This document shows, piece after piece, positions 2,666-63,724 of a stretch of 64,000 bases of DNA (its first letter is position 1; every line of letters begins with the position of its first letter). A model generated the notes under the pieces. It saw nothing but the letters and a program-made list of their open reading frames with translations. It ran no database searches and was not told the DNA's origin. This DNA comes from Pedobacter hiemivivus. GTDB lineage: Bacteria > Bacteroidota > Bacteroidia > Sphingobacteriales > Sphingobacteriaceae. The position numbers and the translations under genes are program-made. Where the stretch lies: positions 124,001 to 188,000 of the forward strand of contig NZ_SJSM01000008.1 of assembly GCF_004331685.1 (NCBI RefSeq). Reading direction: 5' to 3'.

Positions 2666-2684
2666 TATTTAAATACATTTTTCT

Positions 2685-2721
2685 AAAATCCCCCTTCTTT
2701 TAAGTTGGGGGATTTTTTTTT
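2685..2721 (+). terminator. Intrinsic terminator after rpoC
   Basis: A ten-base stem (AAAATCCCCC pairing with GGGGGATTTT) surrounds a 12-base loop and runs into a stretch of nine T. It lies 20 bases after the rpoC stop and ends the rpo transcript before the DUF3467 gene. Confidence 0.9.
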
Positions 2722-2752: not shown

Positions 2753-2756
2753 TCTT

Positions 2757-3071: not shown

Positions 3072-3985
3072 TCTGCTTTTTGACCGATATAATTGATGAC
3101 GGCATTATCTTGGCCAGGTTCAAACCAGGCGGTGCTGTCATCTCTTCTAAACCATGTAAGCTGGCGTTTTGCAAAACGTCTGGTGTTCTGCTTAATTTGA
3201 TCTACGGCGTCTTTCAACGCGATTTCGCCATCTAAATAAGCGAATAATTCTGAATACCCCACTGTATTGAGTGCATTGTATTTTCTGAAGGGTTGTAGAC
3301 CCTTTACTTCATCTAATAAACCCGCTTCCATCATTTTATCTACACGTTGGTTTATCCGGTTGTAGAGCTCCGAACGGTCCATATTCAGACCTATTTTGAT
3401 GATATTGAATGGTCTGATTTTTTTGCTGTTGGTAAGATGGGCAGATAGTTTTGTACCTGTAGATAGGTAAAATTCCAGACCTCTGATCATGCGTTGTGGA
3501 TTGGACTGATCCACTTTGTTATAGTATTCGGGATCATACTCGCTGAGCTGCTTTTTGATAGCTTCCAGGCCCTCGTTTGCTAGCTGTTGATTAAGTTTTT
3601 CGCGGATGTTCATATCTGTTTCCGGAAGATCATCTAATCCATTACATACGGCATCTATATACAAACCGGAGCCGCCAACCATGATCAACAGGTTATGCTT
3701 TTCAAACAATTGAGTAATTCGATCAATGGCTTGTATTTCGAAATCACCAGTACTAAATAAGTTTTCTATGCTATGGGAGTTGATAAAGTGATGGGGTGCA
3801 GCAGCCAGTTCTTCGGCTGAAGGTTTTGCTGTTCCAATTTCCATCTCCTTAAAAAATTGCCTGGAGTCGGCTGATATGATTTCAGTAGAAAAATGCCTGG
3901 CCAAAGCAATGGCCAGTGCAGTTTTTCCTATTCCGGTTGGACCAACAATTACAATTAATGTTTTATTTAATGCCATATCTGGCAT
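3068..3985 (-). CDS. miaA: tRNA dimethylallyltransferase MiaA
   Basis: The enzyme transfers a dimethylallyl group to N6 of A37 in tRNAs that read codons beginning with U, the first step to i6A/ms2i6A. The 305-residue length is typical. A P-loop GPTGIGKT lies at residues 15-22, followed by ISADSRQ with the catalytic Asp, the GGSGLYIDA segment, and a C-terminal QIKQNTRRFAKRQLTWFRRD block typical of MiaA. The start codon overlaps the stop of the upstream gene as TAATG, so translation is probably coupled. A second ATG nine bases downstream (MALNKT) is an alternative start. It is the last gene of a minus-strand run that also holds cca and tsaC. Confidence 0.97.
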   Translation of the reverse strand: MPDMALNKTLIVIVGPTGIGKTALAIALARHFSTEIISADSRQFFKEMEIGTAKPSAEELAAAPHHFINSHSIENLFSTGDFEIQAIDRITQLFEKHNLLIMVGGSGLYIDAVCNGLDDLPETDMNIREKLNQQLANEGLEAIKKQLSEYDPEYYNKVDQSNPQRMIRGLEFYLSTGTKLSAHLTNSKKIRPFNIIKIGLNMDRSELYNRINQRVDKMMEAGLLDEVKGLQPFRKYNALNTVGYSELFAYLDGEIALKDAVDQIKQNTRRFAKRQLTWFRRDDSTAWFEPGQDNAVINYIGQKAD

Positions 3986-4638
3986 TAATAGTCCTCTTTA
4001 CTATTGTATTCTTCGTCTTCGTAGTCATCATTGTCTGCAAATTCATCTGCATCATCAGTTTCTTCTTCATCAGCGTCGTCAGATTTTTCTTCTGCATTGA
4101 TGCCTCGGCCACCCATCGCTTCGATTTCTTCTGTGTCTTCAGGTACAAAATCCATTTCATTTAAGAAATCAAATTCTGTAGATGCTGGAGCCGCAGATAC
4201 TGTAACAGCGCCAAAGTTATCCTTTTCGATAATTTTAGGGGCTTCTCCTGTACTTTTTACCAAGAATGGATACTCTATGTTCGGATCTGGATCAAGGATG
4301 ATCTTGATGAGTTCTACGTGAAAATCAAATGGACGGTCGAAGTTATAGATGTAATAAAATTTCTGGTGTGGGTCTTCGATGAATCTGTTTAATTTAGAAG
4401 TTTCCATCAAGGCTACCCCTCTATCTGTTTTACGTTGCGTTGGCAGATAGGCAATTTCATCACCTTTTATCCAGTTGTCAGTACTTACAAAAAATGATGA
4501 TGATTTCTCCGCAGAGTACCCAGTTGAACGGTGTACTGCTTTATGCAAATCTTCAAATGTTTGGGTGGACTTGATATCTATTTCCCGTACTACTTCATCG
4601 AAATCTTCGAAACTTATTCTAAATCTATAAATTGCCAT
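3985..4638 (-). CDS. pRiA4b ORF-3-like / IS1096 passenger TnpR-like domain protein
   Basis: This 217-residue protein opens with YRFRISFEDFDEVVREIDI and continues through a beta-rich domain (SSSFFVSTDNWIKGDEIAYLP) typical of the plasmid pRiA4b ORF-3-like family. Despite the name, members are widespread chromosomal genes and no resolvase activity is established. From about residue 168 the C-terminus is a long Asp/Glu-rich tail with little predicted order. It is translationally coupled to miaA through a one-base TAATG overlap, which suggests co-production. No transposon features surround it. Function is unknown; nucleic-acid mimicry by the acidic tail is only a guess. Confidence 0.75.
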   Translation of the reverse strand: MAIYRFRISFEDFDEVVREIDIKSTQTFEDLHKAVHRSTGYSAEKSSSFFVSTDNWIKGDEIAYLPTQRKTDRGVALMETSKLNRFIEDPHQKFYYIYNFDRPFDFHVELIKIILDPDPNIEYPFLVKSTGEAPKIIEKDNFGAVTVSAAPASTEFDFLNEMDFVPEDTEEIEAMGGRGINAEEKSDDADEEETDDADEFADNDDYEDEEYNSKEDY

Positions 4639-48284: not shown

Positions 48285-48327
48285 TAAAGCCGGGATTCAG
48301 ATGGAATATTCTGGCCCCGGTTTATTT
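48285..48327 (+). terminator. Intra-operon hairpin between porP/sprF and GH92
   Basis: TAAAGCCGGG pairs with CCCCGGTTTA (one bulged G), followed by an AT-rich T-containing run. It may reduce read-through from the porP-like gene into the GH genes. The hairpin covers the first codons of the longest GH92 frame, which argues for the downstream ATG at 48349. Confidence 0.45.
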
Positions 48328-48348
48328 AAACTTTTAACCCTAAATGTT

Positions 48349-50598
48349 ATGCATTTTTTTTATAAGCGACTACCTACTATTTTATGGGTTTTCTCCATTG
48401 TTTTCTTTAGTTCCGTTCTAAATGCACAAACGACTATAAAAAGTAAACTTACCGGCAATGTCAATCCCTTTATTGGCTCAGCTAAACACGGCCATGTTTT
48501 TGTTGGCGCAAATGTTCCTCATGGAGCAGTACAGCTAGGCCCTTCGCAAATCATGCAAACCTGGGATAAATTTAATGGCTGGGATTGGTGCAGCGGATAC
48601 AATTATGATAGCCCTGAAATTTTGGGCTTTACACATACCCATTTAAGTGGCACCGGTATAGGTGATCTGAATGATATTTTGTTACTGCCTGCAAATGGTA
48701 AAACGCAGATAGTAAGGGCTAAATTCAATGATATGGAAAGTGGCTATGGTTCTTTCTTTTCTAAGCAAAAGGAAGTAGCCAAACCCGGTTATTATGAGGT
48801 TTACCTGGATAAGTACAAAGTAAAGGCGCAGTTAACTGCTACTGAACGCGTAGGCTTTCATCAATATACTTATGAAAAAAAGGACAATGCTCATTTGCTG
48901 GTAGACCTTGGGTTTGGCATGGGCTGGGACGAACCTGTGGAAACCTATTTCAAGCAGATCAATGCCACTACCTTTGAGGGCTATCGCTTTTCAAAAGGTT
49001 GGGCTGTAGATCAGCGTATTTATTTTGCCATTCAACTTTCTGTTCCTGTAACCAAAGCTGAACTCTACAATGTTTCAGCATTGCAGCAAGGTACACAGGC
49101 CACTGGCAAAGAGATAAAGGCAGCGTTGTTTTTTGATGCAGAAAAAAACGCACAGCTAAAAGTAAAAGTTGCGATATCGCCAGTAAGTGCAAGCAATGCG
49201 TTACTCAATTTAAAAACGGAGCTGCCAGGTTGGGATTTTAATGCGGCAGTTCAGCAAGCTGATGCCAAATGGGAAAAAGCTTTATCCAGCGTAAGAATTG
49301 AGGCCTCCCCAATTCAAAAAACAAAGTTTTATACCGCTTTATACCATACCATGATTGCGCCTTCCCTGTTTAATGACGTGAATGGAGATTACCGTGGTGC
49401 AGATAAAAAGGTTTATAAAAATGCGACCTTTAACAATTATACCACCTTTTCTTTATGGGATACTTACCGAGGCCTCAACCCGCTAATGACCATTTTACAA
49501 CCCGAACGTGTAAACGATATCGTAAACACCATGCTGGCTATCTATCAGCAGCAAGGGAAATTACCAGTATGGCACCTACATGGCAATGAAACCAATTGTA
49601 TGATCGGTTATCCGGCCGTACCGGTTATTGTCGATGCCTATTTAAAAGGGTTTAGAAATTATGATATTGAATTAGCCTACAAAGCCATTCGTCAATCAGC
49701 AATGCAAGATACCAATGGCATTCAATATATACAGAAACTGAAATTTATTCCTGCCGATGGGGAAGAGGAATCTGTTGCAAAAGCAATGGAATATGCAATT
49801 TCAGACGCTAGCATTGCTCAGATGGCTAAAGCATTAGGGAAAAAGGACGACTTCAAATATTTTACAGATAGGAGCAAGCTATACCAACAATATTTCGATA
49901 AAAGTACAGGTCATTTCCGTGGACGAATGGCAGATGACTCATGGCGAACGCCTTTCAATCCTTATAACGCAGTGCACAGGCAAAATGATTACTGCGAAGG
50001 CAATGCCTGGCAGTACACCTGGTTGGTACCTCAGGATGTGAAGGGATTAATTAACTGCTTTGGCGGTACGCAGCCTTTCCTGACCAAATTAGATTCTTTA
50101 TTTACCATTTCATCAAAGTTGGATGCAGAGACTTCCCCAGATATCTCGGGCCTGATTGGCCAGTATGCACATGGTAACGAACCCAATCATCATATTCCCT
50201 ATTTGTACAGTATGGCTGGACAACCCTGGAAAACTGCCGAAATCATTAGACAAATAGATCAGCAATTTTATACCGACAAACCGGATGGCTTATGTGGCAA
50301 CGATGATGCTGGAGAAATGAGTGCCTGGTATGTGTTTTCTGCATTAGGTTTTTACCCTGTTCACCCCACGAGCGGAGAATATGTATTTGGTTCTCCTTTG
50401 ATTGATCAGGCGACCATAAAATTGCCGGGAAATAAAACCTTCCGCATCACCGTTATGGGGAATAGCAAGGACAATCCCTATATCCGTAAAATTGAACTGA
50501 ACCATAAACCTTATACCAAATCATTTGTTACGCATCATACCATTGTAGCCGGTGGGGAAATGAAAATTTACATGGGTAATAAACCTTTAGCCTATTAA
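48349..50598 (+). CDS. GH92 alpha-mannosidase
   Basis: This protein of about 749 residues is a calcium-dependent exo-alpha-mannosidase of family GH92. After a signal peptide (LPTILWVFSIVFFSSVLNAQ) it shows VNPFIGSAKHGHVFVGANVP, PHGAVQLGPSQ, WDTYRGLNPLMTI, HGNETNCMIGYPAV, the catalytic-acid block YCEGNAWQYTWLVP (Glu near 550) and the base region GNDDAGEMSAWYVFSALGFY. GH92 enzymes remove alpha-1,2/1,3/1,6-mannose from N-glycans. The start at 48349 gives a clean signal peptide. The GH2 gene follows after eight bases. Confidence 0.95.
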   Translation: MHFFYKRLPTILWVFSIVFFSSVLNAQTTIKSKLTGNVNPFIGSAKHGHVFVGANVPHGAVQLGPSQIMQTWDKFNGWDWCSGYNYDSPEILGFTHTHLSGTGIGDLNDILLLPANGKTQIVRAKFNDMESGYGSFFSKQKEVAKPGYYEVYLDKYKVKAQLTATERVGFHQYTYEKKDNAHLLVDLGFGMGWDEPVETYFKQINATTFEGYRFSKGWAVDQRIYFAIQLSVPVTKAELYNVSALQQGTQATGKEIKAALFFDAEKNAQLKVKVAISPVSASNALLNLKTELPGWDFNAAVQQADAKWEKALSSVRIEASPIQKTKFYTALYHTMIAPSLFNDVNGDYRGADKKVYKNATFNNYTTFSLWDTYRGLNPLMTILQPERVNDIVNTMLAIYQQQGKLPVWHLHGNETNCMIGYPAVPVIVDAYLKGFRNYDIELAYKAIRQSAMQDTNGIQYIQKLKFIPADGEEESVAKAMEYAISDASIAQMAKALGKKDDFKYFTDRSKLYQQYFDKSTGHFRGRMADDSWRTPFNPYNAVHRQNDYCEGNAWQYTWLVPQDVKGLINCFGGTQPFLTKLDSLFTISSKLDAETSPDISGLIGQYAHGNEPNHHIPYLYSMAGQPWKTAEIIRQIDQQFYTDKPDGLCGNDDAGEMSAWYVFSALGFYPVHPTSGEYVFGSPLIDQATIKLPGNKTFRITVMGNSKDNPYIRKIELNHKPYTKSFVTHHTIVAGGEMKIYMGNKPLAY

Positions 50599-50606: not shown

Positions 50607-53225
50607 ATGAAAAAAATACTGTTCTTAGTTTATTGCGTATTTACTTTTTCAACTTTGTCGGCGCAGCAGCGGTACGAGTTAACTGATGGATGGCGCTGTG
50701 CAAATATTAAAGAAGTACAGGTTGGCGGCAGTCAAATCTCTACAGTAGGATATTCTTTAAACAATTGGATGCCAGCAACAGTTCCCGGAACAGTACTGAC
50801 TACCTTACTGAACAATAAAAAAGTTCCCGATCCTTTTTATGGGATGAATAACCTGCAGATCAAAGATGTGTATGATACCGGCAATGCTTATTATACCTAC
50901 TGGTTTGTAAAATCTTTTACCCAAACTGCTGTGGGTGATGAACAAATTTGGTTAAAACTAAGAGGCGTAAATTACAAATGTGAAGTTTTCTTGAATGGCA
51001 AAAAGGTAAATGCTATCACACATGAAGGAATGCACCTTCGCCAGCAATACAACATTACCAAGCTTTTGGCCGCAAATGGAGAGAACAGACTGGCCATATT
51101 GGTTTATCCACCAGATTTCCCCGGTGCACCAAACGGTGGGCAGGGAGGTGATGGTACCATCGCTAAAGGTTTAACTACCGCCTATACTGCGGGTTGGGAT
51201 TGGATTCAGCCTGTTCGTGACCGCAATACAGGAATCTGGGATAAAGTCTTCATCGAAAAAACTAAAGGTATAAACCTTGAAAATCCGCATGTGGTGACCC
51301 TGGTGCCAGGCATCCGTTTACCAGAAGGTATCCAACAGCCTGCCATGATCCGTACTTCATGCGAAATAGAAAATCCTTTAAACCGGACCGTTAGCGGATT
51401 CATCCAATACACCCTGGATGGTAAGGTTATTAAAACAGCTGTAGCTTTAAAATCGGGAGAAAAGAAAACCGTAAAGCTGCCTGATTTCGAATTGAAAAAT
51501 CCGAAGCTCTGGTGGCCAAGTGGCTATGGTAAACAACCATTGTACAAAATCAGTTTTAGCTTTGTTGATGCTGCGGGCAAAACCGCAGACCTGGAAAATG
51601 TTCAGTTTGGGGTTAGAGAAATCTCTACCCGCTGGAACGAACAAACCCGTAGTAGGGAAAACCTGGTAAACGGACAAAAGATATTTATAAAAGGCGGCAA
51701 CTGGATCATCTCTGATGCGATGCTCCGCTTTTCTAATGAACGTTATGATGCCGAGGTGCGGTTCCATAGGGATATGAACCTTAACCTGATTCGGATCTGG
51801 GGTGGTGCAATTATCGAAAGACCGGAGTTTTATGAGGCTTGTGATAAATATGGTATGTTGGTGTTTCAGGATTTCTGGTTCAGTGGCGATTGCAATGGCA
51901 AATGGCAGGATCCTTTGAAAAAGGACGACCAGTGGATCCGCAGGCAATACCCAGATGATCATGGGCTGGTATTGACCGCTGCTGCTGATCAGATCAAGAT
52001 GATCCGGAACCATGCTTCCCTGGCCTTTTGGTGCGGTGGCAATGAAATTACCCCGCCGGATGATATTCTGCTCCCACTGAAGGAGAGGATTCTTCCTGAA
52101 CTAGATGGCACACGTTATTTCTTTGATTATTCCAATACCAACGACATGTCCTACAATTCCATTGGTGGAAATGGCGATGGGCCATATAACATCCAGGACC
52201 CTAAAACTTTTTGGTCTTACAAAACTTATCCTTACAATTCTGAGGTCGGCTCAGTAGGCGTTGGCGACTATGCTTCATTGGAGCGCTTTATTCCGAAGCA
52301 AAATATGATTGCACCGCAAAACGGGCAGGAGCCAGATTCGGTATGGGCTTACCACAAATATATTCCCTACGATCATCACATTGATCCTTACGGGAAAGCG
52401 AAAGATGCGAGAGATTTTGCGATGAAAGCGCAGCTGGTAAATTATGACCAATACCGCGCATTGATGGAAGGTTTTTCGGCCCACATGTGGGATTGGTATA
52501 CTGGAACGATCATCTGGAAAACCCAAAACCCATGGACATCTATGCGTGGACAGATGTACGATTATTACCTGGATGTAAATGCCTGTTTATACGGTACCCG
52601 GAAAGGTGCGGAACCCCTGCACATTATGATGAACCCATTGGATAGTATGCTTACTGTAGTCAATAATGGTTTTGCTACACAGCGTAACATCATGGTGCAG
52701 GCCAGTATATATGACCTGGACGGGAAACTACAGGATCAGGTGCAGGCATTTGCCGAAATCGCACCTTCGACAGTACAGCGTATGTTTCCGATCCAGACGC
52801 AGTTAAAGAAAATGAAGGGCAAGGATGGTGCTTTTGTGTTATTGAAATTGCTAAATCCCCAGCAACAGGTATTGAGCGAAAATTTCTACTGGCTGCCGGG
52901 GTCGGACGGAAAGTATACCGGCCTGCAGCAGATGAAATCGGCTGAATTAAAAGTTACAGCTACGAAGACAACAAAAGGGGAAATTGAAGTCAGGTTAAAA
53001 AATGATGCAACCAACACCCTGGCCTTTTTTAATCGGGTGGCCCTGGTCAACACCACAACAGGCGAACGGATTCTTCCTGCTTTCTATTCCGATAATTATT
53101 TCAGTGTATTGCCTGGCGAAGAAAAAATGATAGTTGTGGGGGCTTCTGAACAAGGAAACACGTCTTTAAGTGTAGCGGTTTATGGCTGGAATGTTAAAAG
53201 GCAGCTGTTCCCAATAAAAAAATAA
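50607..53225 (+). CDS. GH2 beta-mannosidase / Man-GlcNAc beta-mannosidase-like enzyme
   Basis: This 872-residue GH2 protein has a signal peptide (ILFLVYCVFTFSTLSAQQ), a jelly-roll sugar-binding domain (LRGVNYKCEVFLNGKKV), the block GWDWIQPVRDRNTGIWDKV, an Ig-like domain, and a TIM barrel with acid/base Glu480 in FWCGGNEITPPDD and nucleophile Glu546 in YNSEVGSVG. The RDRNTGIWD block and the CGGNE motif place it in the endo-beta-mannosidase/exo-glucosaminidase branch rather than beta-galactosidases. Beside GH18 and GH92 the likely substrate is the core Man-beta-1,4-GlcNAc of N-glycans. Confidence 0.88.
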   Translation: MKKILFLVYCVFTFSTLSAQQRYELTDGWRCANIKEVQVGGSQISTVGYSLNNWMPATVPGTVLTTLLNNKKVPDPFYGMNNLQIKDVYDTGNAYYTYWFVKSFTQTAVGDEQIWLKLRGVNYKCEVFLNGKKVNAITHEGMHLRQQYNITKLLAANGENRLAILVYPPDFPGAPNGGQGGDGTIAKGLTTAYTAGWDWIQPVRDRNTGIWDKVFIEKTKGINLENPHVVTLVPGIRLPEGIQQPAMIRTSCEIENPLNRTVSGFIQYTLDGKVIKTAVALKSGEKKTVKLPDFELKNPKLWWPSGYGKQPLYKISFSFVDAAGKTADLENVQFGVREISTRWNEQTRSRENLVNGQKIFIKGGNWIISDAMLRFSNERYDAEVRFHRDMNLNLIRIWGGAIIERPEFYEACDKYGMLVFQDFWFSGDCNGKWQDPLKKDDQWIRRQYPDDHGLVLTAAADQIKMIRNHASLAFWCGGNEITPPDDILLPLKERILPELDGTRYFFDYSNTNDMSYNSIGGNGDGPYNIQDPKTFWSYKTYPYNSEVGSVGVGDYASLERFIPKQNMIAPQNGQEPDSVWAYHKYIPYDHHIDPYGKAKDARDFAMKAQLVNYDQYRALMEGFSAHMWDWYTGTIIWKTQNPWTSMRGQMYDYYLDVNACLYGTRKGAEPLHIMMNPLDSMLTVVNNGFATQRNIMVQASIYDLDGKLQDQVQAFAEIAPSTVQRMFPIQTQLKKMKGKDGAFVLLKLLNPQQQVLSENFYWLPGSDGKYTGLQQMKSAELKVTATKTTKGEIEVRLKNDATNTLAFFNRVALVNTTTGERILPAFYSDNYFSVLPGEEKMIVVGASEQGNTSLSVAVYGWNVKRQLFPIKK

Positions 53226-53304: not shown

Positions 53305-54732
53305 ATGCAGACTGCTGATCAAAAAGAAAATTCCCCTGTAGGGCAAAATTATACTACACCTCTGGTTTCCCTTACTTTCCTTTTTTTTATGTGGGGATTT
53401 ATCACCTGCATGAACGATATCCTGATCCCTCACTTGAAGGGACTGTTTGTCTTGAATTACCTGGAAGCCATGCTGGTTCAGTTTTGCTTTTTTGGGGCCT
53501 ATTTCATTGGCTCATTGGTGTATTTCCTGATCTCCCATTTTAAAGGGGATCCTATTAATAAAATCGGGTATAAAAATGGTTTATTGCTAGGCTTAGTGGT
53601 TTCGGCGCTGGGCTGTCTGATGTTCTATCCGGCGGCAACGCTGTCTGTGTATGGTTTATTCCTGGCCGCATTTTTTATTTTAGGACTGGGTTTTACCTTA
53701 CTACAGATTACGGCAAATCCTTATGTTTCCTTATTGGGAAAAGAAAGCACCGCATCCGGCAGACTCAACCTGGTACAAGCCTTTAACTCGTTTGGTACCA
53801 CCATCGCTCCAATTTTTGGTGGTTATCTGATCTTTCATTTTTTCGCCACAAATGGGCATCTTTCTGCTGGCGCTACTAAAATGCCTTACCTTATATTTTC
53901 GGGCATATTCGTGTTACTAACCCTTTTCATTTATAAAGTAAAGTTACCTGATTTTAAAAGTGATCACTCGGCGCTGGATGGTCTGGGGGCACTACGATTC
54001 CCGCAGTTAAAAGGTGGGATTTTTGCTATTTTCTTTTATGTAGGTGCCGAAGTAACCATTGGTAGTTTCATGATCAGTTTCCTGGAACATGGCGATATCA
54101 TGGGATTAAAAGAAACGGTAGCTAAAAATTATCTGTCTCTATACTGGGGCGGTGCCATGATTGGCAGATTTTTAGGGGCCATCAGCATGAATGATGTGCT
54201 GAGTAACAGTAAAAAAATGTTGTACATGGTATTGGTTTGTGTAGGTCTATTTGTATTGCTTTACACGATTGTAGATCTTGATTTTGCACAGATGCAGTGG
54301 TTCATCATCTTTATTGTCATTAACCTTGTAGGCTTCAGCATCGGCAAATCTGCTCCAGCTTTGATGCTTGCCATTTTTGCGGTAATTAATATTGCACTAC
54401 TACTCATTACGGTATTTACAGGAGGTGCGCTTTCTATGTGGTGTCTTTTGGGGATAGGCCTTTTCAACTCGATTATGTGGTCTAATATCTTTACCCTTTC
54501 TATTTCAGGACTGGGCGAATATAAAAGTCAGGGTTCTTCTCTGTTGGTGATGGCCATACTGGGCGGAGCCGTAATTCCATTGATACAAGGTAGTTTGGCC
54601 GATGCGATTGGTATTCAGAATTCCTTCCTGTTACCTGCCGTATGTTACTTGTATGTAGCCTGGTTCGGTATGTTCTGCTTCAAGAAATTCAAATCTACCA
54701 TATTAGAAAAGCCAGCAAGGTCAGGTCATTGA
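53305..54732 (+). CDS. FucP-like sugar MFS transporter of the first polysaccharide locus
   Basis: This 475-residue protein has about twelve membrane helices and the FucP-family start FLFFMWGFITCMNDILIPHL, then LLQITANPYVSLLG and SIMWSNIFTLSISGLGEYK. It should import a monosaccharide, here probably mannose released by GH92, across the inner membrane. It is the last gene of the locus, 79 bases after GH2, and is followed by a strong terminator. A 12-base palindrome lies in the gap before it. Confidence 0.9.
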   Translation: MQTADQKENSPVGQNYTTPLVSLTFLFFMWGFITCMNDILIPHLKGLFVLNYLEAMLVQFCFFGAYFIGSLVYFLISHFKGDPINKIGYKNGLLLGLVVSALGCLMFYPAATLSVYGLFLAAFFILGLGFTLLQITANPYVSLLGKESTASGRLNLVQAFNSFGTTIAPIFGGYLIFHFFATNGHLSAGATKMPYLIFSGIFVLLTLFIYKVKLPDFKSDHSALDGLGALRFPQLKGGIFAIFFYVGAEVTIGSFMISFLEHGDIMGLKETVAKNYLSLYWGGAMIGRFLGAISMNDVLSNSKKMLYMVLVCVGLFVLLYTIVDLDFAQMQWFIIFIVINLVGFSIGKSAPALMLAIFAVINIALLLITVFTGGALSMWCLLGIGLFNSIMWSNIFTLSISGLGEYKSQGSSLLVMAILGGAVIPLIQGSLADAIGIQNSFLLPAVCYLYVAWFGMFCFKKFKSTILEKPARSGH

Positions 54733-54878: not shown

Positions 54879-56735
54879 ATGATAAAATTTGTCCGGGTAT
54901 TTTTCTTTATTACCATTACGTTTTTGGGATTCATGCTTTCTTTCTGTAATGCACAGCAGACTGTTAAAATTGATGATCAAGTACCACATCATATATTTGG
55001 GTATGGGGAGATTGAGCAATTCGAAGATACGAGTGGTACTTTGAAATTTGAAGACATCCTAAAAGGAAGAACAGATATTCACTTCGCAAAAAGTAAGGTT
55101 TATACCCCCAAAAGTCCTAATCCTAAATCTGCTTATTGGTTTAAAATAAGAATTGCGTTTGTTCCACAATCAAAAGAACATTGGGTGCTTGAATTTTTTG
55201 ATCAGACCATTGATGACATCAATTTGTATGCGCCCGAGGGAAACAATACCTACAAGAAATACACATTTGGTGCGCAGTACAATTTTAGCCTAAGAGAATA
55301 TGCCCATAAGAACTTTTTATTCAATCTGGACAATTCCAACGCAAGGGAAGAAACCTATTACATAAGGGTAAAATCTTCGCAAACGGCCAGCGTGATTGTC
55401 GTACTCAGAAACCTTCGCTGGATTGTTCATTACGCGACTGAGGAATATCTTTTTTTCGGTGTCTTTTATGGAATGATAGTAGTGTTTAGCTTTTATAACC
55501 TTTTGATGTTTTTGGCCGTTCGGCAAAAGCAATACCTATATTATGTAGCGTACAACCTTAGTATTGGTTTGTATGAAATGTGTGTTGATGGAGTTGCATT
55601 TCAGTATTTATGGCCCAATCATCCTGAATGGAACCAATATGCTTACGGTGTGTTTTTGTATTCCAGCAGTATATTTGGCTTGCTTTTTACCCTGAATTTT
55701 TTGTACGTAAAAAGCAAGGCCCCCCGACTTTACTGGAGTATAATTGCGGTTATCGTTCTTCGAACGGTCTTTTTTATCTGCTGCCTGTTCGATCGTCATT
55801 TGTTTACTTATAAAATGATTGAAGTGATTCCTCTGGCCCTTGCTCTAGGCTCAGGGATCTATATCTGGAAAAGAGGGTATAAGCCGGGCCGTTTTTTTGT
55901 GGTAGGCTATTCATTTCTATTTCTTGGACTGGTTATTAAAGCATTGGTACTTTTAAATGTGCCTTGGCTTCCTTATGGGCCGATCACTCATTATAGCTTA
56001 AGCTTCTGCTTTGTCGTTGAAATGATTTTGGTTTCCTTTGCTATTGGCGATAGCGTTCGGGGGCTAAGAAAAAAGAAGGATAAAGCACAGCGGAGAATGA
56101 TTCAACAGTTGCAGATCAATGAAAGATTGAAAGATACATTGAATAAAGAGCTCACTGTATTGGTTGATGAACGAACAAAAGAGGTGAGTGATAAAGCCGC
56201 CACTATCGAGAAGCAGAATGAAGAAATCTCGCTGATGAATGCAATGCTGGAAAAGGACAACCAGGAGCTGCATTTGAATATTGAAAAGGTAACGCGTGCA
56301 CGTGTAATGTCAGATGAAGTTGATTTTGCTGAGTTCAGTAAAATATATCCAGACAGGGAGACCTGCTTTAAATACCTGTCCGAATTAAAGTGGGCAAACG
56401 GCTATGCCTGTAGGAAGTGCCAGAATACACAATATCTTTCAGGTTTTTTACCTTTTAGCCGCAGATGTACAAAATGTGGATACGACGAGTCTGTTATTGC
56501 TTATACCATTTTTCAGAACAGTAGGATTCCAATCAATAAAGCCTTCTACATGCTTTTTCTTGTTTACTCTACCAAAGGTAAAATATCCTCTCATAAACTG
56601 TCCCAGTTACTCTTGATCCGGCAAGGAACCTGCTGGGCATACAACAGTAAAATGCAAAAGATACTGGAAGAAAGAAAAAAAGAGTTGAAAAATGCGGGCG
56701 AAGGGGGATGGAGTAAGCTAATTTTTGAGTCTTAA
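54879..56735 (+). CDS. 7TM-DISM receptor fused to an IS1595-type transposase zinc-ribbon domain
   Basis: This 618-residue membrane receptor has a signal peptide (residues 1-25), an extracellular 7TMR-DISMED2-like beta domain (about 45-180, SAYWFKIRIAFVPQ), seven membrane helices (about 185-392), a coiled coil (about 393-472, EKQNEEISLMNAMLEKDNQE) and a C-terminal zinc ribbon with Cys511, Cys514, Cys530 and Cys533. The block before and after (FSKIYPDRETCFKYLSELKW, YTIFQNSRIPINKAFYMLFL) follows the N-terminal region of IS1595/ISXO2 transposases through the helical part. The DDE catalytic domain is absent. It probably senses a ligand outside and binds DNA or RNA inside. It lies between two polysaccharide loci, the second of which lacks sigma/anti-sigma genes. 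Domain identities rest on residue patterns only. Confidence 0.8.
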   Translation: MIKFVRVFFFITITFLGFMLSFCNAQQTVKIDDQVPHHIFGYGEIEQFEDTSGTLKFEDILKGRTDIHFAKSKVYTPKSPNPKSAYWFKIRIAFVPQSKEHWVLEFFDQTIDDINLYAPEGNNTYKKYTFGAQYNFSLREYAHKNFLFNLDNSNAREETYYIRVKSSQTASVIVVLRNLRWIVHYATEEYLFFGVFYGMIVVFSFYNLLMFLAVRQKQYLYYVAYNLSIGLYEMCVDGVAFQYLWPNHPEWNQYAYGVFLYSSSIFGLLFTLNFLYVKSKAPRLYWSIIAVIVLRTVFFICCLFDRHLFTYKMIEVIPLALALGSGIYIWKRGYKPGRFFVVGYSFLFLGLVIKALVLLNVPWLPYGPITHYSLSFCFVVEMILVSFAIGDSVRGLRKKKDKAQRRMIQQLQINERLKDTLNKELTVLVDERTKEVSDKAATIEKQNEEISLMNAMLEKDNQELHLNIEKVTRARVMSDEVDFAEFSKIYPDRETCFKYLSELKWANGYACRKCQNTQYLSGFLPFSRRCTKCGYDESVIAYTIFQNSRIPINKAFYMLFLVYSTKGKISSHKLSQLLLIRQGTCWAYNSKMQKILEERKKELKNAGEGGWSKLIFES

Positions 56736-56933
56736 GTAATGAAATCGCCTCTTAGTTGACTGTTAATAGCATTTTTTTTACTTTTTTTTAATGTTTTTTT
56801 AGCGTATCGTCACAAAAGGGCGAATACATGTTAAAGCCATCATGATTAAAGAAAATCCCTATTCATGCTTGTAAATGAAGTGTATTGCTTTTTATTTAAG
56901 TTATTATTTATCAATGTGTTATGATTTATTTTT

Positions 56934-56965
56934 CTTGCACTTGTCATATGATTGGAATAGCTTTA
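56934..56965 (+). promoter_or_regulatory. Candidate promoter of the second polysaccharide locus
   Basis: CTTG at 56934-56937 and TAGCTTTA at 56958-56965 are 20 bases apart, resembling the TTTG/TAnnTTTG promoter with one mismatch in each box. Transcription would begin near 56972. Confidence 0.35.
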
Positions 56966-56997
56966 CGTTATTAAACCTCATTCTAACCAAATAAACG

Positions 56998-57093
56998 ATG
57001 AAAAGAATTACTGCTCCTGTGAATCGACAGACCTGTCGTGTTCAATTTCTACAAAACAATTTATTACCACAATTAACAATCGGAACTGCCTAA
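56998..57093 (+). other. Possible 31-codon leader ORF
   Basis: A frame from ATG 56998 to TAA 57093 encodes MKRITAPVNRQTCRVQFLQN and 11 more residues. It has no recognised domain. It could be a leader peptide of the second locus or a chance frame; the inverted repeat lies inside it. Confidence 0.2.
57025..57038. repeat. Perfect inverted repeat, operator candidate
   Basis: CGACAG-AC-CTGTCG is a perfect 6-2-6 inverted repeat. It is G/C-rich within an A/T-rich leader, upstream of susC. It might be an operator or RNA hairpin. Confidence 0.45.
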
Positions 57094-57142
57094 AACTTTC
57101 CGCTTTTGCTAACTAACCAATTGTAAACCTAAACCAAACCAC

Positions 57143-57172
57143 ATGAACAAACTTAGACTCACACTTCCTTAA
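57143..57172 (+). other. Short leader ORF before the second susC
   Basis: A nine-codon frame (MNKLRLTLP) lies 146 bases before the SusC start. Its upstream bases resemble those of the mini-ORF at 37728 before the first susC. Confidence 0.3.
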
Positions 57173-57193
57173 CCACAGGCAATTTATCGTATT

Positions 57194-57235
57194 TCCATTT
57201 TAACTAAGGCAGATTCCTAAAATCTGTCAGTGGAA
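57194..57235 (+). promoter_or_regulatory. Leader hairpin before the second susC
   Basis: An inner stem GGCAGATT/AATCTGTC (one G-T pair) with a five-base loop sits within an outer TTCCA/TGGAA stem. It falls between the mini-ORF and susC. It has no T tract, so it is not a terminator. Confidence 0.35.
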
Positions 57236-57288
57236 TCCTATGGCCTAAAATTTAATTAACAATACCTAAACCATTACAAATATGTATT

Positions 57289-60200
57289 ATGAAGTATAAA
57301 TTATGCGATTTTTTAATCTTTCTTTTGCTGATTTTAATATCTGGGAGTGGCATAGCCCAAGACATGGTAAAAGTAAGAGGATCTGTAAAAGATAGTGTTG
57401 GCGCTTTACCTGGGGTTGGTGTTTTAGTATCAGGAACTAAAATATCGACATCAACAGATGTAGCCGGAAATTATAAAATTGAAGCACCCAAAACTGGTGT
57501 TTTATCGATCTCGTTTATTGGTTATGTAACCCAAAGATTTGATATAAAAAGCCTTAAGGCTTCCGCTACGGGCGACTATGTACTGAATGTCGTGATGAAA
57601 GCCGATGACAATTCATTGAATGAAGTGGCCGTAGTGGGTTTTGGTACGCAAAAGAAGATGACAATGGTCGGTTCGGTTACCACAATCAATCCTAAAGAAC
57701 TGAAGGGCCCTACCAGTAACCTTACCCAAATGCTTGCCGGCCGGTTGGCTGGGGTAATTGGCTATCAAAGTGGGGGAGAGCCGGGATCCGACAACGCGTC
57801 GTTCTTTGTCAGAGGGCTTGGTTCTTTTGGTGCAGGTAAAGTAGACCCCCTGATTTTGATTGATGGGGTCGAATCGACACAAAATGATCTTGCCCGTTTA
57901 CAACCGGATGATATTGCCAGTTTCTCTGTGTTAAAAGATGCTACTGCTGCGGCTGTTTATGGTGCCAGAGGTGCAAATGGGGTAATTTTAGTTAAAACAA
58001 AGGAGGGTGAACCGGGGAAAACCAAATTTGCTTTCCGTACGGATCATACCATATCTGGTAATACAGAAAATCTTAAATACACAGATAATATTACCTATAT
58101 GAATTTGGCGAATGAAGCTGCATTAACCAGGAATCCGCTAAATCCCATCCCTTATTCTCAGACCAAGATTGACCGGACTGCGTCTGGTACGGCCAACCCT
58201 TATTTGTACCCAAGCAATGACTGGATAAAACAGACCATAAAGGATTATACTTACAATCAGCGTTTCAATACGAGTGTAACTGGTGGTGCTGATAAGGCCA
58301 GCTACTATGTTGCCGGGACTTTGAATATAGATAACGGTATCTACAAAGTTGATCAATTAAATAATTTTAACAGTAACGTTAAGCTGATCAATTATTCAAT
58401 AAGATCTAATGTGACCTTAAATTTAACAAAAACCACAAGAGCCGACATCAGGGTATATGGCCAATTTGATGATTACAACGGCCCACTTGGCAGCGGGAAG
58501 GACGTTTTTCAAAGGGCTATGTTTTCAAATCCGGTTAATTTCCCTATGACTTTCCCTTCATCTTATGCGCCACGTGTAAAACATGTTTTATTCGGTAATG
58601 CTGTGGTAGAGAATGTCCCAGGATCTATCATTGGTGGGAACCTATATATTAATCCGTATGCCGACCTTGTTAGAGGGTATAAGCAATCTAATAACTCTAA
58701 TCTTCAACCCCAGATTGAAGTGAACCAGGATTTAGCTGCTATACTTCCGGGCTTGAAAGCACGCTTTATGGGCTATGTGCAACGTAACAATAGTTATGCA
58801 GTTTCACGTGCTTATAGCCCGTTTTATTACAATGCCAGTTCAATCGACGGGAATGATATTACTTTAACTGAACTAAACAATGGAGGTCCAACCAATGTCG
58901 GCCAGGTGGGTAGTGATTACTTAAGTTATGGTGAAGGAACTAAAGATATCAAGTCTTCGCTGTACACTGAGGCGGCCATTAATTATAATCAGGTATTTAA
59001 AAAAAATACGGTGGGTGGAATGCTCGTTGGAATTTTACGGAACTCTCTTTCTGGTAATGCGGGGAGCTTGCAAAATTCATTGCCAAAACGAAATGTTGGC
59101 CTCTCAGGTAGATTTACTTATGGATATGACGATAAGTACCTGACCGAATTTAACTTTGGATACAATGGAACAGAACGGTTTGCAGAAAAGAATCGCTTTG
59201 GTTTTTTCCCCTCTATAGGTGTTGGTTATGTTTTATCTAATGAGCAGTTTTTTAAACCTTTAAGTAGGGTGGTAAGCTTATTTAAAATCAGAACTTCCTA
59301 CGGATTTAATGGCAATGACCAGATTGGAAACGATACGGATAGGTTCTTTTATTTATCGAATATAGATCTGACCAATGGTAATGGAGCCTCATTTGGTGAG
59401 GATCCTACTACACTATATTACCGAAATGGAGTGAGTATTTTAAGATATGCCAATCCCGCAATTACATGGGAGGAATCGCGGCAGCTTAACATAGGTTTGG
59501 ATCTTTCCTTTTTCAATGCTGTAAATTTCACTATAGATGCCTATCAGAAAAGGACCTCTAATATTTTGCAAGTACGAAGTGGCATCCCAACAACAATGGG
59601 TTTAGTCGCAAATGCAAGTGCTAATGTGGGTGTTCAGGATAGTAAAGGTGTTGATTTTCAAACCGATTATAGCAAGTCCTTTAGAGGAGGATTTGTTCAG
59701 GTAAGGGGCACATTTACATTTGCAACAAATAAAATTGTAAAATATGATGAACCGGTTTATCCGGCAAGTCTGGCTCATTTGTACAGAGTAGGTCACTCTT
59801 CTGGAGAAATGATGGGTTTTATTGCGGAGCGTTTATTTACAGATGATATAGAGGTGGCCAACTCACCAAGCCAGAAAGCGATAGCCGGAAATATGGAAGT
59901 AAGAGGCGGGGATATCAAATACAGAGATGTGAATCGAGATGGCGTTATTAATGATGACGATAGGGTTTTTATGGGGCTACCTAATACCCCGGAAATTACT
60001 TACGGCTTTGGATTTTCTGCTGCCTACGGAAACTTTGACCTGAGCGCACAAATGCAGGGGAATGCCCGTATTGCTTTCTTTGTGAATAGTGGTGGATTTG
60101 ATACCGAAAATTTGAGTAAAAGTGGTATAGCTCCCTTTCTCCAAATCGGCGGATATCAAACCCGGGTATTGCAAGCCGTCGCTGATGACCATTGGTCTGA

Positions 60201-60507
60201 AGACAGTCGAAATTCTTACGCATTTTTCCCGCGTTTAAGCAGTGTTGCAACGCCCAATAATTACGTTAATTCGAGTTGGTGGTTGCGTAATGGTGCTTTT
60301 TTAAGGCTTCAGCAAGTGGAAATTGGTTATACGCCAAAAGGCAATTTCAAAAAAAGAGTTGGTTTAAGCTCATTCCGGATTTATGCAAGCGCAAGGAATC
60401 TTTTTGTGATAAGCAAGTTCAAATTATGGGACCCGGAAGTGCGTGGGAATGGCCTGGACTATCCGCTTCAAAGGATATATAATCTGGGTGTTAATATTGG
60501 CTTTTGA
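57289..60507 (+). CDS. SusC/RagA TonB-dependent transporter without STN domain
   Basis: This 1072-residue outer-membrane importer has a signal peptide (FLLLILISGSGIAQ), a carboxypeptidase-regulatory-like domain (about 27-105, GSVKDSVGALPGVGVLVSGT), the TonB-box region LNEVAVVGFGTQKK, the plug (MLAGRLAGVIGY, FFVRGLGSFGAGKVDPLILI) and the barrel ending NLGVNIGF. Unlike the first locus there is no STN domain, so the FecR/sigma pathway is not used here. It starts 553 bases after the fusion-receptor gene and is followed by its SusD partner after 42 bases. Confidence 0.95.
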   Translation: MKYKLCDFLIFLLLILISGSGIAQDMVKVRGSVKDSVGALPGVGVLVSGTKISTSTDVAGNYKIEAPKTGVLSISFIGYVTQRFDIKSLKASATGDYVLNVVMKADDNSLNEVAVVGFGTQKKMTMVGSVTTINPKELKGPTSNLTQMLAGRLAGVIGYQSGGEPGSDNASFFVRGLGSFGAGKVDPLILIDGVESTQNDLARLQPDDIASFSVLKDATAAAVYGARGANGVILVKTKEGEPGKTKFAFRTDHTISGNTENLKYTDNITYMNLANEAALTRNPLNPIPYSQTKIDRTASGTANPYLYPSNDWIKQTIKDYTYNQRFNTSVTGGADKASYYVAGTLNIDNGIYKVDQLNNFNSNVKLINYSIRSNVTLNLTKTTRADIRVYGQFDDYNGPLGSGKDVFQRAMFSNPVNFPMTFPSSYAPRVKHVLFGNAVVENVPGSIIGGNLYINPYADLVRGYKQSNNSNLQPQIEVNQDLAAILPGLKARFMGYVQRNNSYAVSRAYSPFYYNASSIDGNDITLTELNNGGPTNVGQVGSDYLSYGEGTKDIKSSLYTEAAINYNQVFKKNTVGGMLVGILRNSLSGNAGSLQNSLPKRNVGLSGRFTYGYDDKYLTEFNFGYNGTERFAEKNRFGFFPSIGVGYVLSNEQFFKPLSRVVSLFKIRTSYGFNGNDQIGNDTDRFFYLSNIDLTNGNGASFGEDPTTLYYRNGVSILRYANPAITWEESRQLNIGLDLSFFNAVNFTIDAYQKRTSNILQVRSGIPTTMGLVANASANVGVQDSKGVDFQTDYSKSFRGGFVQVRGTFTFATNKIVKYDEPVYPASLAHLYRVGHSSGEMMGFIAERLFTDDIEVANSPSQKAIAGNMEVRGGDIKYRDVNRDGVINDDDRVFMGLPNTPEITYGFGFSAAYGNFDLSAQMQGNARIAFFVNSGGFDTENLSKSGIAPFLQIGGYQTRVLQAVADDHWSEDSRNSYAFFPRLSSVATPNNYVNSSWWLRNGAFLRLQQVEIGYTPKGNFKKRVGLSSFRIYASARNLFVISKFKLWDPEVRGNGLDYPLQRIYNLGVNIGF

Positions 60508-60549: not shown

Positions 60550-62481
60550 ATGAAAAATATAATGCAATCAAAAAAGATTTGGCCAATATTAGCTTTATTA
60601 ATATTTGCGAATTTTTCCTGTAAAAAATACCTGGATGTAGTTCCAGATAATGTGCCTACGATCGACAACGCCTTTACCAGTAAAAGCGAGGCAGAAAAGT
60701 TTTTGTTCAGTTGCTATTCTTACTTGCCTAATGATGGAAATCCAACTAGTAATCCTGGTTTTCTTGGAGGCGATGAAATATGGATACCCAGTAGCCGCAG
60801 GGGCACATTTGATACCAGAGGTGCGTTGATGATGTGGGATATAGCCCTGGGGCGCCAAACTGCTGCAAGTCCAATCTCGAATGTTTGGAATGGAAGATAT
60901 CAAGCGATCAGACAATGTAATATATTCATAGAAAATGTGAGTGATGAAGAAAAGGTCTACGACCTGACATCCGATATGAGGTCGCGCTGGTTGGCAGAAG
61001 CAAAAATTCTCAAAGCATTTAATAATTACCAACTTTTAAGAGCTTACGGCCCCATTCCGCTTATTGACAAAAACATTGACATCGATGCGCCTACTTCAGA
61101 CATGATGGTAACCAGAGCGCCTTTTGATGACTGTGTGAATTATGTGGTTAACCTAATTGACGAGGCTGTTCCTTACCTTCCTGTTGTGATAGGTGAGCGG
61201 GCCACAGAACTTGGTCGGATGACGCAGCCGATCGCCTTGGCTATAAAAGCGAAATTATTGATTTTGGCCGCGAGTCCATTGTTTAATGGTAATCCGGATT
61301 ACGCATCCCTTAAAAATAAAGACGGAACTCAATTGGTAAACCCAATCTTTGATAAAACCAAATGGGATCGTGCAGCATTAGCCACAAAAGCTGCCATTGA
61401 TATTTGTGAGCAAGCGGGAATTAAACTGTATACAGCGGTACCATCATCGGTATTGTCACCATTTACCAATCAGCAAATGACATTGAGAAATGTGATTTCA
61501 GAGAGATGGAACACAGAGCGGGTATGGGGCTTGTCCAATAGTTACGCGGGGCAGCTTCAACGGGTTGCTATGGGATGTCTGGCCGCTAGTTTCACACCGA
61601 ATAACTCAAATGGACAGCTCTCTGCTCCTCTGAAGATCACAGATTTGTTTTATACCAAGAACGGAGTGCCGATGAATGAAGATAGTGAGCTTGATTTCTC
61701 TATAAAAAACCAATTGCGTACGGCAACAAATGAAGAACGTTTTGCAATTAGTCAAGGCTACCAAACGGCGCGGGTTAACTTTGATCGTGAACCTCGTTTT
61801 TATGCCGATCTTGGATTTGATGGGGGTGTGTGGTATATGGTCGCTAATAATCCGGGAGCAGGTGGTGGTGATGAAGGAACCTTCTATATGCAGGCAAAAT
61901 ATACTCAACCCGGTAATTCTGGGGCTGAAGGCTATTATAACGAAACCGGATATTTTATTAAAAAATTAGTGGAAGCTAACCTGACTAATTCCTCAAATTC
62001 TAATACAGTTAAGCCCTATGACTGGCCGGAAATTCGATTGGCTGATTTGTACTTGATGTATGCCGAGGCTTTAAATGAAGCGAATGGTCCAACAGATCCG
62101 GATATCTTTAAATACCTGGATTTGATTCGGGTAAGAGCTGGACTATTAGGCGTTCGGGAATCCTGGACACAGTTTACAAAAGATAGAGGTGCAAGATTAG
62201 GTAATCAGGATTACATGAGGAAACTGATTAGACGAGAAAGAGGTATCGAACTGGCATTTGAGGGAAGTCGTTTTTGGGATCTTAGAAGATGGAAGACGGC
62301 TGCTGAAGAATTAAATGCAGCAATTACGGGTTGGACAATCAGTCAAAGTTCTGCTATAGGTTATTATCAGCCAAGAGTAATTTACAACCAGACATTTATT
62401 GCTCCGAGAGACTATTTATGGCCAATTCAAACCGGAGCTTTCAGAGTAAACACAAATTTAGTTCAGAATCCAGGATGGTAG
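60550..62481 (+). CDS. RagB/SusD outer-membrane lipoprotein
   Basis: This 643-residue lipoprotein has a lipobox at NFSC (Cys24) and the classical SusD start KKYLDVVPDNVPTIDNAF. Further SusD blocks are ILKAFNNYQLLRAYGPIPLI, LADLYLMYAEALNEANG and the C-terminal RRERGIELAFEGSRFWDLRR. It partners the SusC encoded just upstream and should bind glycan at the surface. The family is certain; the glycan is not evident. Confidence 0.95.
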   Translation: MKNIMQSKKIWPILALLIFANFSCKKYLDVVPDNVPTIDNAFTSKSEAEKFLFSCYSYLPNDGNPTSNPGFLGGDEIWIPSSRRGTFDTRGALMMWDIALGRQTAASPISNVWNGRYQAIRQCNIFIENVSDEEKVYDLTSDMRSRWLAEAKILKAFNNYQLLRAYGPIPLIDKNIDIDAPTSDMMVTRAPFDDCVNYVVNLIDEAVPYLPVVIGERATELGRMTQPIALAIKAKLLILAASPLFNGNPDYASLKNKDGTQLVNPIFDKTKWDRAALATKAAIDICEQAGIKLYTAVPSSVLSPFTNQQMTLRNVISERWNTERVWGLSNSYAGQLQRVAMGCLAASFTPNNSNGQLSAPLKITDLFYTKNGVPMNEDSELDFSIKNQLRTATNEERFAISQGYQTARVNFDREPRFYADLGFDGGVWYMVANNPGAGGGDEGTFYMQAKYTQPGNSGAEGYYNETGYFIKKLVEANLTNSSNSNTVKPYDWPEIRLADLYLMYAEALNEANGPTDPDIFKYLDLIRVRAGLLGVRESWTQFTKDRGARLGNQDYMRKLIRRERGIELAFEGSRFWDLRRWKTAAEELNAAITGWTISQSSAIGYYQPRVIYNQTFIAPRDYLWPIQTGAFRVNTNLVQNPGW

Positions 62482-62500: not shown

Positions 62501-63724
62501 ATGAAATTATTTAAATCAATTTTAATGATAGCGCTGATATTCATCGTGCTATACGGATGCCAAAAGGACATCATTGGCCCTTTAGGCAATAATATGACTC
62601 CACCGGGGACTGTATCCAATGTCAAAGTACTCAACCAATCTGGGCAAGCTACCCTAACTTATACTTTGCCTACGGATGATGACATCGCTTATGTAAAAGC
62701 AGAATATACTTTGTTATCTGGTGCTAAACGTGAGGTTCGGGCTTCTTTTTATACCAGTCAGATGGTGGTTGATGGATTTGGTGATACAGAAGTACATACG
62801 GTAACCTTGAGGGTAGTTAATAAAAGTGAAGTTCCCTCTGCTCCAATAACCGTTCAGATTAAGCCCTTGGAAAATGCAATACAAATTGCTTTTAGAACCA
62901 TGAAGGTTGTGGCGGCTTTTGGAGGGATTAATGTTTCTTTAACGAACACCGCCAAAGCAAATTTGTCGATTATTCCGATGAGACAACAAGGCTATAAAGG
63001 TTGGGTTCCGTTTGATGGTATTTATACGGCTGCCGAGGTGGTTAGTAAAAATATAAGAGGATTAGAGACTGTTCCTATTAAAATAGCAGTGGTTATCCGC
63101 GATCGGTTTTTGAACCAAACAGATACGCTATTTGCCGAAGTTACCCCGCTATTTGAAATGCCACTCGCTAAATCTTTGTATAAAGAAATGCCAGGGGTAA
63201 TATGGCCTGGAGATCAGAAAGCTAATTTTTCGAATAATGGAATAGATGCAACGGGGATAAAAAGGATGTGGGATGGGGAGACAGTGGCTTGGCCAAGTTG
63301 TGCTTATACACCGCCAACCGTAACAGATCAAGGGCCACATTCAATTACATTTGATCTCGGTCAGACCGCTCAACTTAGTCGCCTTGTGATCTGGGATTAC
63401 CCTGAAACGATTAGTGCAAGAAAGACATACTTTTATAGGGGGAACATGAAAAACTTTGAAATATGGGGTTCCGCAAATCCTAATCCTGATGGATCATATG
63501 ACAGCTGGTACAAATTGGGCACCTATCAATCTGTGAAACCTTCCGGGTTACCATATGGAGAAGTCAGCGATGAGGATTTAACCACCGCACAGGCAGGATT
63601 TAGCTGGGATCTTGATATCAATGTTCCTAAACTACGCTATCTGAGAATAAAAAATCTAAGTAACTGGCAGGGGACGAATTTCCTATTGATTACGGAAGTT
63701 CAGGCATACGGAAATCCTAAATAA
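62501..63724 (+). CDS. DUF4959/DUF5126/DUF5000 lipoprotein of the second locus
   Basis: This 407-residue lipoprotein has a lipobox VLYGC (Cys20), an FN3-like DUF4959 domain (about 35-120, PGTVSNVKVLNQSGQATLTY), a DUF5126-type middle domain (about 125-225, FGGINVSLTNTAKANLSIIP) and a C-terminal discoidin-like DUF5000 domain (about 240-405, FDLGQTAQLSRLVIWDYPE, NFEIWGS). This arrangement is a standard third gene of many SusC/D loci and is likely a surface glycan-binding protein. The gene follows SusD by 19 bases. Confidence 0.85.
   Translation: MKLFKSILMIALIFIVLYGCQKDIIGPLGNNMTPPGTVSNVKVLNQSGQATLTYTLPTDDDIAYVKAEYTLLSGAKREVRASFYTSQMVVDGFGDTEVHTVTLRVVNKSEVPSAPITVQIKPLENAIQIAFRTMKVVAAFGGINVSLTNTAKANLSIIPMRQQGYKGWVPFDGIYTAAEVVSKNIRGLETVPIKIAVVIRDRFLNQTDTLFAEVTPLFEMPLAKSLYKEMPGVIWPGDQKANFSNNGIDATGIKRMWDGETVAWPSCAYTPPTVTDQGPHSITFDLGQTAQLSRLVIWDYPETISARKTYFYRGNMKNFEIWGSANPNPDGSYDSWYKLGTYQSVKPSGLPYGEVSDEDLTTAQAGFSWDLDINVPKLRYLRIKNLSNWQGTNFLLITEVQAYGNPK

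Follow-up and report, generated by a model that had tools for sequence, protein, structure and literature searches.

The window, as we call the whole stretch of 64,000 nucleotides of Pedobacter hiemivivus DNA that was analysed, encodes a membrane receptor that ends in the zinc ribbon and helix-turn-helix (HTH) of an IS1595-type transposase, and this receptor is likely to be a membrane-bound one-component regulator of a glycan-utilisation locus that most probably activates the adjacent susCD genes. The original prediction, made from the sequence alone, had proposed a one-component regulator in which an output of transposase origin is tethered to a receptor, and this is supported as the best reading by the nesting of the output domain among transposases in a tree, by the loss of the catalytic DDE domain, by the association with SusC/SusD and glycoside hydrolase genes, by an operator-like motif and by a second type of sensor carrying the same output. 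DNA binding and activation of expression are inferred, as there is no experiment.

Domain architecture of the receptor

The receptor-regulator gene (54879..56735, on the + strand like all features of the window given below) is an intact open reading frame of 618 amino acids. The N-terminus is signal peptide-like, the first hydrophobic helix spanning residues 1-25 (54879..54953; helix 2-24 in the structural model); no predictor was used, and of the signal peptide claimed originally only this helix in sequence and model can be confirmed. It is followed by a periplasmic 7TMR-DISMED2 domain (residues 44-176, 55008..55406; PF07696, E 3.1e-29, 102.1 bits against a Pfam cut-off of 22), the model of which is closest to the periplasmic domain of RetS (Foldseek 3jyb_A, E 4.8e-7, TMt 0.82), and by the seven-helix membrane domain 7TMR-DISM_7TM (residues 189-391, 55443..56051; PF07695, E 2.8e-47, 161.7 bits against a cut-off of 29). 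With both domains above cut-off, the predicted 7TM-DISM receptor with a DISMED2-like domain and seven helices held. A long helical linker at about residues 393-480 (56055..56318) is modelled as helices 368-440 and 450-478, with low confidence from about residue 430; that it is a coiled coil, as had been claimed, rests on inspection of the sequence, without a coil predictor.

The C-terminal output consists of an IS1595-type zinc ribbon (residues 493-535, 56355..56483) with Cys511/514/530/533 and the HTH part of IS1595 transposases (residues 547-603, 56517..56687). When the whole receptor is compared with PF12760 (Zn_ribbon_IS1595) the score lies slightly below the cut-off of 25.4 (E 1.8e-5, 25.0 bits), and the C-terminal 137 residues alone exceed it (29.2 bits). 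The HTH corresponds to positions 1-58 of the 215 positions of the NCBIfam model NF033547 (transpos_IS1595; E 1.1e-4 for the piece), and its score of 22.2 bits is far under the cut-off of 75, as would be expected without the catalytic part. The predicted zinc ribbon and helical segment of IS1595 type are thus borne out by PF12760 and NF033547.

The structural model of the output domain has a pLDDT of 89.4 and a pTM of 0.80; a Foldseek search with it returned no match at E<=0.001, and a second fold search returned weak matches (best Z 4.8 over 54 residues, rmsd 3.1), among them HTH proteins and DNA polymerase I fragments, which may reflect a common arrangement only. A sequence search of solved structures gave a single match (E 0.9). 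The helix-sheet-helix fold of the ChiS domain (PDB 7KPO) did not come up among the fold matches inspected for the output domain, which does not exclude such a match. PADLOC gave no match. Pfam finds neither histidine kinase, receiver or AraC domains nor a sigma or anti-sigma domain in the receptor. The combination of sensor and DNA-binding domain within one membrane protein is the layout of a membrane-bound one-component regulator, by domain assignment only.

Origin of the output domain

In a midpoint-rooted tree of 47 zinc-ribbon/HTH segments, in which long branches are present, all 22 sampled receptor outputs fall into one clade (support 94/94), which also includes two short stand-alone proteins and is nested in a larger group (100/99) that holds eight of the 16 transposases. 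A single clade of receptor outputs fits one domestication. The protein stops after the HTH, and when the catalytic parts of related transposases were compared by tblastn with 112 regions comprising a receptor plus 1.5 kb, some genes being counted twice and some regions being shorter at locus ends, no DDE remnant was matched at E<=0.01, so that the claimed absence of the DDE domain held. Sequence and tree show that zinc ribbon and HTH were inherited from an IS1595-type transposase after loss of the catalytic domain.

Three loci (L170, L179, L181) contain intact IS1595-type relatives with perfect 8-bp target duplications at their ends. The idea that the operator described below is a relic of such a transposon end is unsupported: the six arms of these elements aligned with it no better than with shuffled sequences, the fraction of equally good shuffles in local alignments being 0.25 to 0.98.

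Further proteins of this kind were seen. Stand-alone zinc ribbon-HTH proteins are encoded at L129, L124 and L173:1081-1560 in open frames of 151-189 amino acids, too short for a DDE domain, and those of L124 and L173 fall among the receptor outputs in the tree. A single genome (G407; L123, L145-L152) has ten IS1595-like matches. Eight of the proteins were examined and are 304-332 amino acids long; the catalytic motif is altered in the seven that were aligned (e.g., VEVMTCE for VEVDE), one protein still matches the DDE Pfam model, and no convincing terminal repeats were found at the copies examined. These proteins could perhaps represent a separate domestication.

Distribution and conservation

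Relatives of the receptor at E<=1e-60 are found in 86 of 251 genomes of the same taxonomic family, its own included, often several in each genome. The source genome has one full receptor and, in addition, four proteins whose similarity is confined to the receptor part (no further than query residue 448). The output domain alone, for which free transposases are included in the counts, has matches in 89 of the 251 family genomes (E<=1e-15), in 138 of 300 genomes at the level of the order (E<=1e-20) and in 40 of 395 at the level of the phylum (E<=1e-8). More distant receptor members occur in other families of the class, and among the best 80 of 205 matches the loci that could be named belong to Pedobacter, Mucilaginibacter, Arcticibacter, Desertivirga, Dyadobacter, Chitinophaga, Siphonobacter and some unplaced Bacteroidota bins.

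Mean pairwise identity, from 600 random pairs among 79 sequences, is 75% for zinc ribbon and HTH, 65% for the 7TM domain, 62% for the linker and 46% for DISMED2. The four cysteines are invariant in 46 aligned members, as is among receptors an R-Q-x-T-C-W stretch that opens the last long helix of the HTH; RQKTCW is present in related transposases too. These data bear on the explanation that the protein is a chance fusion or a decaying transposon remnant without function. In its favor, the transposase character of zinc ribbon and HTH is clear. Against it, the output is the best-conserved part of the protein, occurs in several genera, forms one clade and is accompanied by conserved neighbours and sites, which all but excludes a functionless remnant.

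Gene neighbourhood

In the window a GH92 enzyme (48301..50598), a GH2-type enzyme with an Ig_GlcNase domain (50607..53225) and, directly upstream of the receptor, an MFS transporter (53305..54732) precede the receptor gene, all assigned by domain matches like the genes that follow it. These are the predicted targets, a SusC-type TonB-dependent transporter (Plug, CarbopepD_reg_2; 57289..60507) and SusD (SusD_RagB, SusD-like_3; 60550..62481), and next a DUF4959/DUF5126/DUF5000 protein (62501..63724). In the only other locus scanned with Pfam, L085 of Mucilaginibacter, GH30 and GH16 enzymes flank the receptor.

This arrangement is conserved. SusC is the next gene after the receptor in 45 of 78 loci and lies within two genes in three more, as compared with three of 831 other open reading frames of the same loci that are directly followed by SusC. 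The 78 loci are those with + strand receptors of 590-690 amino acids (79 minus one without a next open reading frame), and the control omits SusD frames and the last frame of each locus. Outside the family all nine receptor-sized matches sit 0-2 genes before SusC-SusD, with outputs 39-65% identical. Three findings would have refuted the original prediction, namely no zinc-ribbon match, a frameshifted DDE domain in homologues or the lack of a conserved neighbour; each was tested and none was met.

Conserved sites and promoter elements

Between receptor and target a motif of about GGTATTTAAGCGTATCA is conserved and is frequently present twice, as direct repeats with a spacing of 77-93 bp. In the window it is found in the region 56736-57288, which the original prediction had flagged. 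Predicted operator site A, GTTTTTTTAGCGTATCG (56793..56809), is the window's best match to the matrix (18.6 bits; the next has 12.5), and predicted site B, GTAAATGAAGTGTATTG (56871..56887), 78 bp after site A, was assigned by alignment with relatives of 78-bp spacing. The core of site B is changed (AAGTGTAT), AGTGTAT standing where site A has AGCGTAT, and its score is under the scan threshold, so that only site A passes in the window. The same 250 bases follow the receptor in a genome of the same genus (G209) and in a Pedobacter gandavensis locus (L036).

For statistical comparison 94 downstream regions were used (109 minus exact duplicates and short ones), which as orthologous regions share ancestry. 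The 10-mer AAGCGTATCA is present in 50 of them and the 7-mer AGCGTAT in 64, as compared with 4 and 24 for the best 10-mer and the best 7-mer of shuffled sequences. Two exact cores 70-100 bp apart are found in 47 regions, with observed spacings of 77-93 bp and in 23 of the 47 of exactly 92 bp. A matrix scan at 12 bits detects a site in 73 regions and two or more in 53, as compared with 0 in shuffled sequences, 3 on the reverse strand and 5 in 93 regions upstream of the receptor; these counts are partly circular, because 65 of the same 94 regions had served to train the matrix. No site was detected within 700 bp at 11 bits in 21 of the 94 regions, and with a relaxed matrix none within 2.5 kb for 30 of 127 receptor entries (duplicates kept, some stretches cut short). 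An attempt to relate the third core base (G or C, AAGCG/AACCG) to covarying receptor residues gave no clean classes, since in some loci one site of a pair has G and the other C.

A genome-wide test is less circular, though its pattern was derived from the same loci. The strict pattern GGTANNNAAGCGTATYR has 112 matches in the 251 whole genomes, of which 42 follow a receptor at a distance of 23-2033 bp, every one of them in the receptor's orientation; the comparison used 113 receptor places at E<=1.9e-43, and ten weaker ones (E 1.8e-32 and above) were excluded. The 70 matches away from receptors comprise 30 from the 85 receptor genomes (0.35 per genome) and 40 from the 166 other genomes (0.24 per genome). 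Since they exceed the about 38 matches of the pattern read backwards (a hand count) and are denser in receptor genomes, the background is not cleanly flat, and some of the 70 may be further real sites.

In 44 of the 47 paired loci the site pair is followed by TTG-N17-23-TAnnTTT (shuffled mean 2.8, maximum 7); the Bacteroidota-type -7 promoter consensus is TAnnTTTG (PMC9723704). In the window, by pattern and alignment, the -33 element TTG is at 56935..56937 and the -7 element TAGCTTT, of the TAnnTTT type, at 56958..56964, 20 bp after the TTG. Both sites are located upstream of the -33 element, by about 55-68 bp and 130-160 bp. A third conserved box C with a consensus of about CTAatTATCAa.aa.TTAc, identified by comparison of the window (56902..56923) with relatives, lies between site B and the promoter.

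The position of the sites favors activation. Alternatively, the same regulator could act through the same sites as a tethered repressor of susCD until the signal arrives. No evidence fixes the sign of regulation, and box C and the promoter elements could take a separate activator. However, neither site overlaps the -33/-7 elements, both being about 55-68 bp or further upstream, and the HTCS regulators found at such loci increase the expression of their targets (PMC10766802), which makes repression unlikely. Sites placed this far upstream of a promoter are usual for activation. It could also be imagined that the repeats function as RNA, in a leader or attenuator, and not as DNA sites; their one-strand conservation and fixed spacing within groups might be quoted for this. 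However, they are upstream of the conserved promoter elements and would thus be outside the transcript started there, and an RNA element is considered very unlikely.

Locus variants as natural experiments

Insertions that part the receptor from its target show that the sites remain with the target in two genomes. In G066 an element, which from its open reading frame layout we take to be of IS3 type, lies between receptor and sites, and the last site is still 152 bp before SusC (cores 154 bp apart); in G206 an insert of about 1.9 kb and of unidentified kind lies there, and the last site is still 128 bp before SusC. Where an extra open reading frame intervenes (L053, L059, L075), the sites precede the next large gene. 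In four loci (L037, L038, L039, L040) paired sites are found 120-255 bp before the receptor itself as well, suggesting autoregulation. In addition, one locus has a second site pair away from the receptor, 88 bp apart (L086:14557-14661), possibly marking an extra target, and in L017 the site is an inverted rather than a direct repeat.

The motif is also kept when SusC is replaced, as shown by comparison of 11 close relatives of the window receptor (64-77%). Only L035 has a window-like SusC (85%), the SusCs of the other ten being 27-33% identical to the window's (local alignments, some short). All ten relatives with a dissimilar SusC carry the motif, nine of them as a pair. The pairs of L037, L038, L044 and L046 are seen downstream of the receptor only with A or C as third core base, the paired sites of L039 are beside SusC, 3.4 kb on, and L043 has a single copy that is a near-perfect palindrome (L043:9934). 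In the window a leader of about 320 nt (56967-57288) with two ATG starts that soon reach stops precedes SusC; in L036 SusC begins about 120 bp past its second site. It is conceivable that the long leader of the window is a scar of SusC replacement.

In genome G031 the same helix-zinc ribbon-HTH output is attached to a different sensor, in a protein of 1078 amino acids (L153:9109-12345, - strand) with seven Reg_prop repeats, Y_Y_Y and, by sequence, a membrane segment, about 5 kb from a 7TM version (2202-4124). This propeller fusion, too, is without histidine kinase, receiver and AraC domains. Downstream of it AGCGTATC and AACGTATTG are 78 bp apart, as are sites A and B of the window; AGCGTATC reaches 13.1 bits, and both fail the relaxed scan. 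Instead of SusC, the next genes encode a protein of the Beta-lactamase family and one that resembles polysaccharide lyase 14. Weak sites behind this fusion in the absence of SusC suggest that motif-like sites go with the output and not with sensor or target, albeit in one case: it is the only fusion among 113 strong output-domain places, and there is no second one in the part of the order-level matches that was inspected.

Other loci lack the motif. In all five f8 loci (L156, L157, L158, L160, L161) the receptors precede SusCD and the motif is absent. A search for an alternative f8 operator gave no convincing repeat, and shared 8-mers, each in three of the five loci, sum to CAATCGATTTCGGA, which we take to resemble LacI-type operators. 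In the f9 loci L154, L155 and L159 one weak site resembling the motif is seen in each (GTGTACTAAGCGTATA or similar), with matrix scores of 9.0, nothing over 6, and 6.7. These sites are suggestive at most and were excluded from all counts.

These variants bear on the possibility that the motif is bound by another factor and that the receptor output acts by protein contact or signals elsewhere. In its favor, there are no binding data for the output, 30 of the 127 receptor entries are without a nearby site, the further conserved box C exists, and the 70 strict matches away from receptors exceed the backward-read control. However, only 40 strict matches occur in the 166 genomes for which no receptor is listed (0.24 per genome), so that such a factor would need to act mostly at receptor loci, and motif-like sites are found behind the propeller fusion too. 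We therefore regard another factor as unlikely and binding by the receptor itself as the preferred reading.

Proposed mechanism

The inferred sequence of events is as follows. The periplasmic DISMED2 domain would sense a sugar or glycan fragment, the type of ligand being inferred, and the 7TM domain and the long helix would relay the change to the cytoplasm. Zinc ribbon and HTH would then bind the two sites, arranged as direct repeats, that precede the promoter of the adjacent susCD genes; the sites themselves are established by comparative genomics. Binding would most likely activate transcription.

A bolder joint reading, for which there is no experiment, remains a mere possibility. It combines a single domestication in Bacteroidota with a portable output of helix, zinc ribbon and HTH that would have been swapped between unrelated glycan sensors (7TM-DISM and HTCS-type propeller). 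The output may have kept the transposase habit of gripping two ends, such that one membrane dimer would bridge sites 77-93 bp apart, and the bridged sites would loop the promoter at the membrane; looping is inferred. The location of the gene just before its own operator would be explained by membrane capture, as insertion of the nascent receptor into the membrane would drag the operator there.

Comparison with known systems

No published description of such a receptor was found in the open-access PMC literature searched, in line with the statement in the original prediction that no characterised member was known. If the proposal is true, there is a further regulatory system for carbohydrate-active enzyme genes in Pedobacter, Mucilaginibacter, Dyadobacter, Chitinophaga and others, in addition to HTCS, ECF sigma/anti-sigma systems and carbon catabolite repression, which commonly control such genes (PMC10766802). 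It would also exemplify, in bacteria, the conversion of a transposase DNA-binding domain into the output of a receptor. The motif could be used to predict which glycan loci belong to which sensor, and as a likely operator is already defined, the system is directly testable.

With the 7TMR-DISM receptors NicD and RetS of Pseudomonas aeruginosa the window receptor has DISMED2 and 7TM domains in common, and DISMED2 of NicD was reported to bind carbohydrates (PMC8544897). It differs from them in its output, which is neither a kinase nor a cyclase but a transposase-type DNA-binding domain. That a 7TMR-DISM receptor can end in a DNA-binding domain is, in general terms, not without precedent: the ChiS family likewise has sensor and DNA-binding domain in one protein, and its DNA-binding domain occurs with 7TMR-DISM in proteobacteria (PMC8092284, Fig. 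5 legend). However, the ChiS domain is a helix-sheet-helix variant, and neither a zinc ribbon nor a transposase origin is mentioned in the relevant sections of that paper (PMC8092284). IS1595 and ISXO2 transposases share zinc ribbon and HTH, whereas the receptor is without DDE and is fused to a sensor. TnpB-derived repressors (TldR) and eukaryotic transposase-derived transcription factors are transposon proteins turned regulators as well. They use a different transposon protein, TldR being RNA-guided, and to our knowledge have no membrane-bound member. ECF sigma/anti-sigma systems also govern carbohydrate-active enzyme loci (PMC10766802); in contrast to these, the window receptor has no sigma or anti-sigma domain. 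The HTCS of Bacteroidota glycan loci are alike in being membrane sensors beside SusCD with the same job as proposed here, and the receptor relative in G031 has a Reg_prop/Y_Y_Y sensor. Such a sensor is typical of HTCS. Unlike HTCS, the window receptor has no histidine kinase, receiver or AraC domain and would act on its sites through a transposase-type zinc ribbon and HTH.
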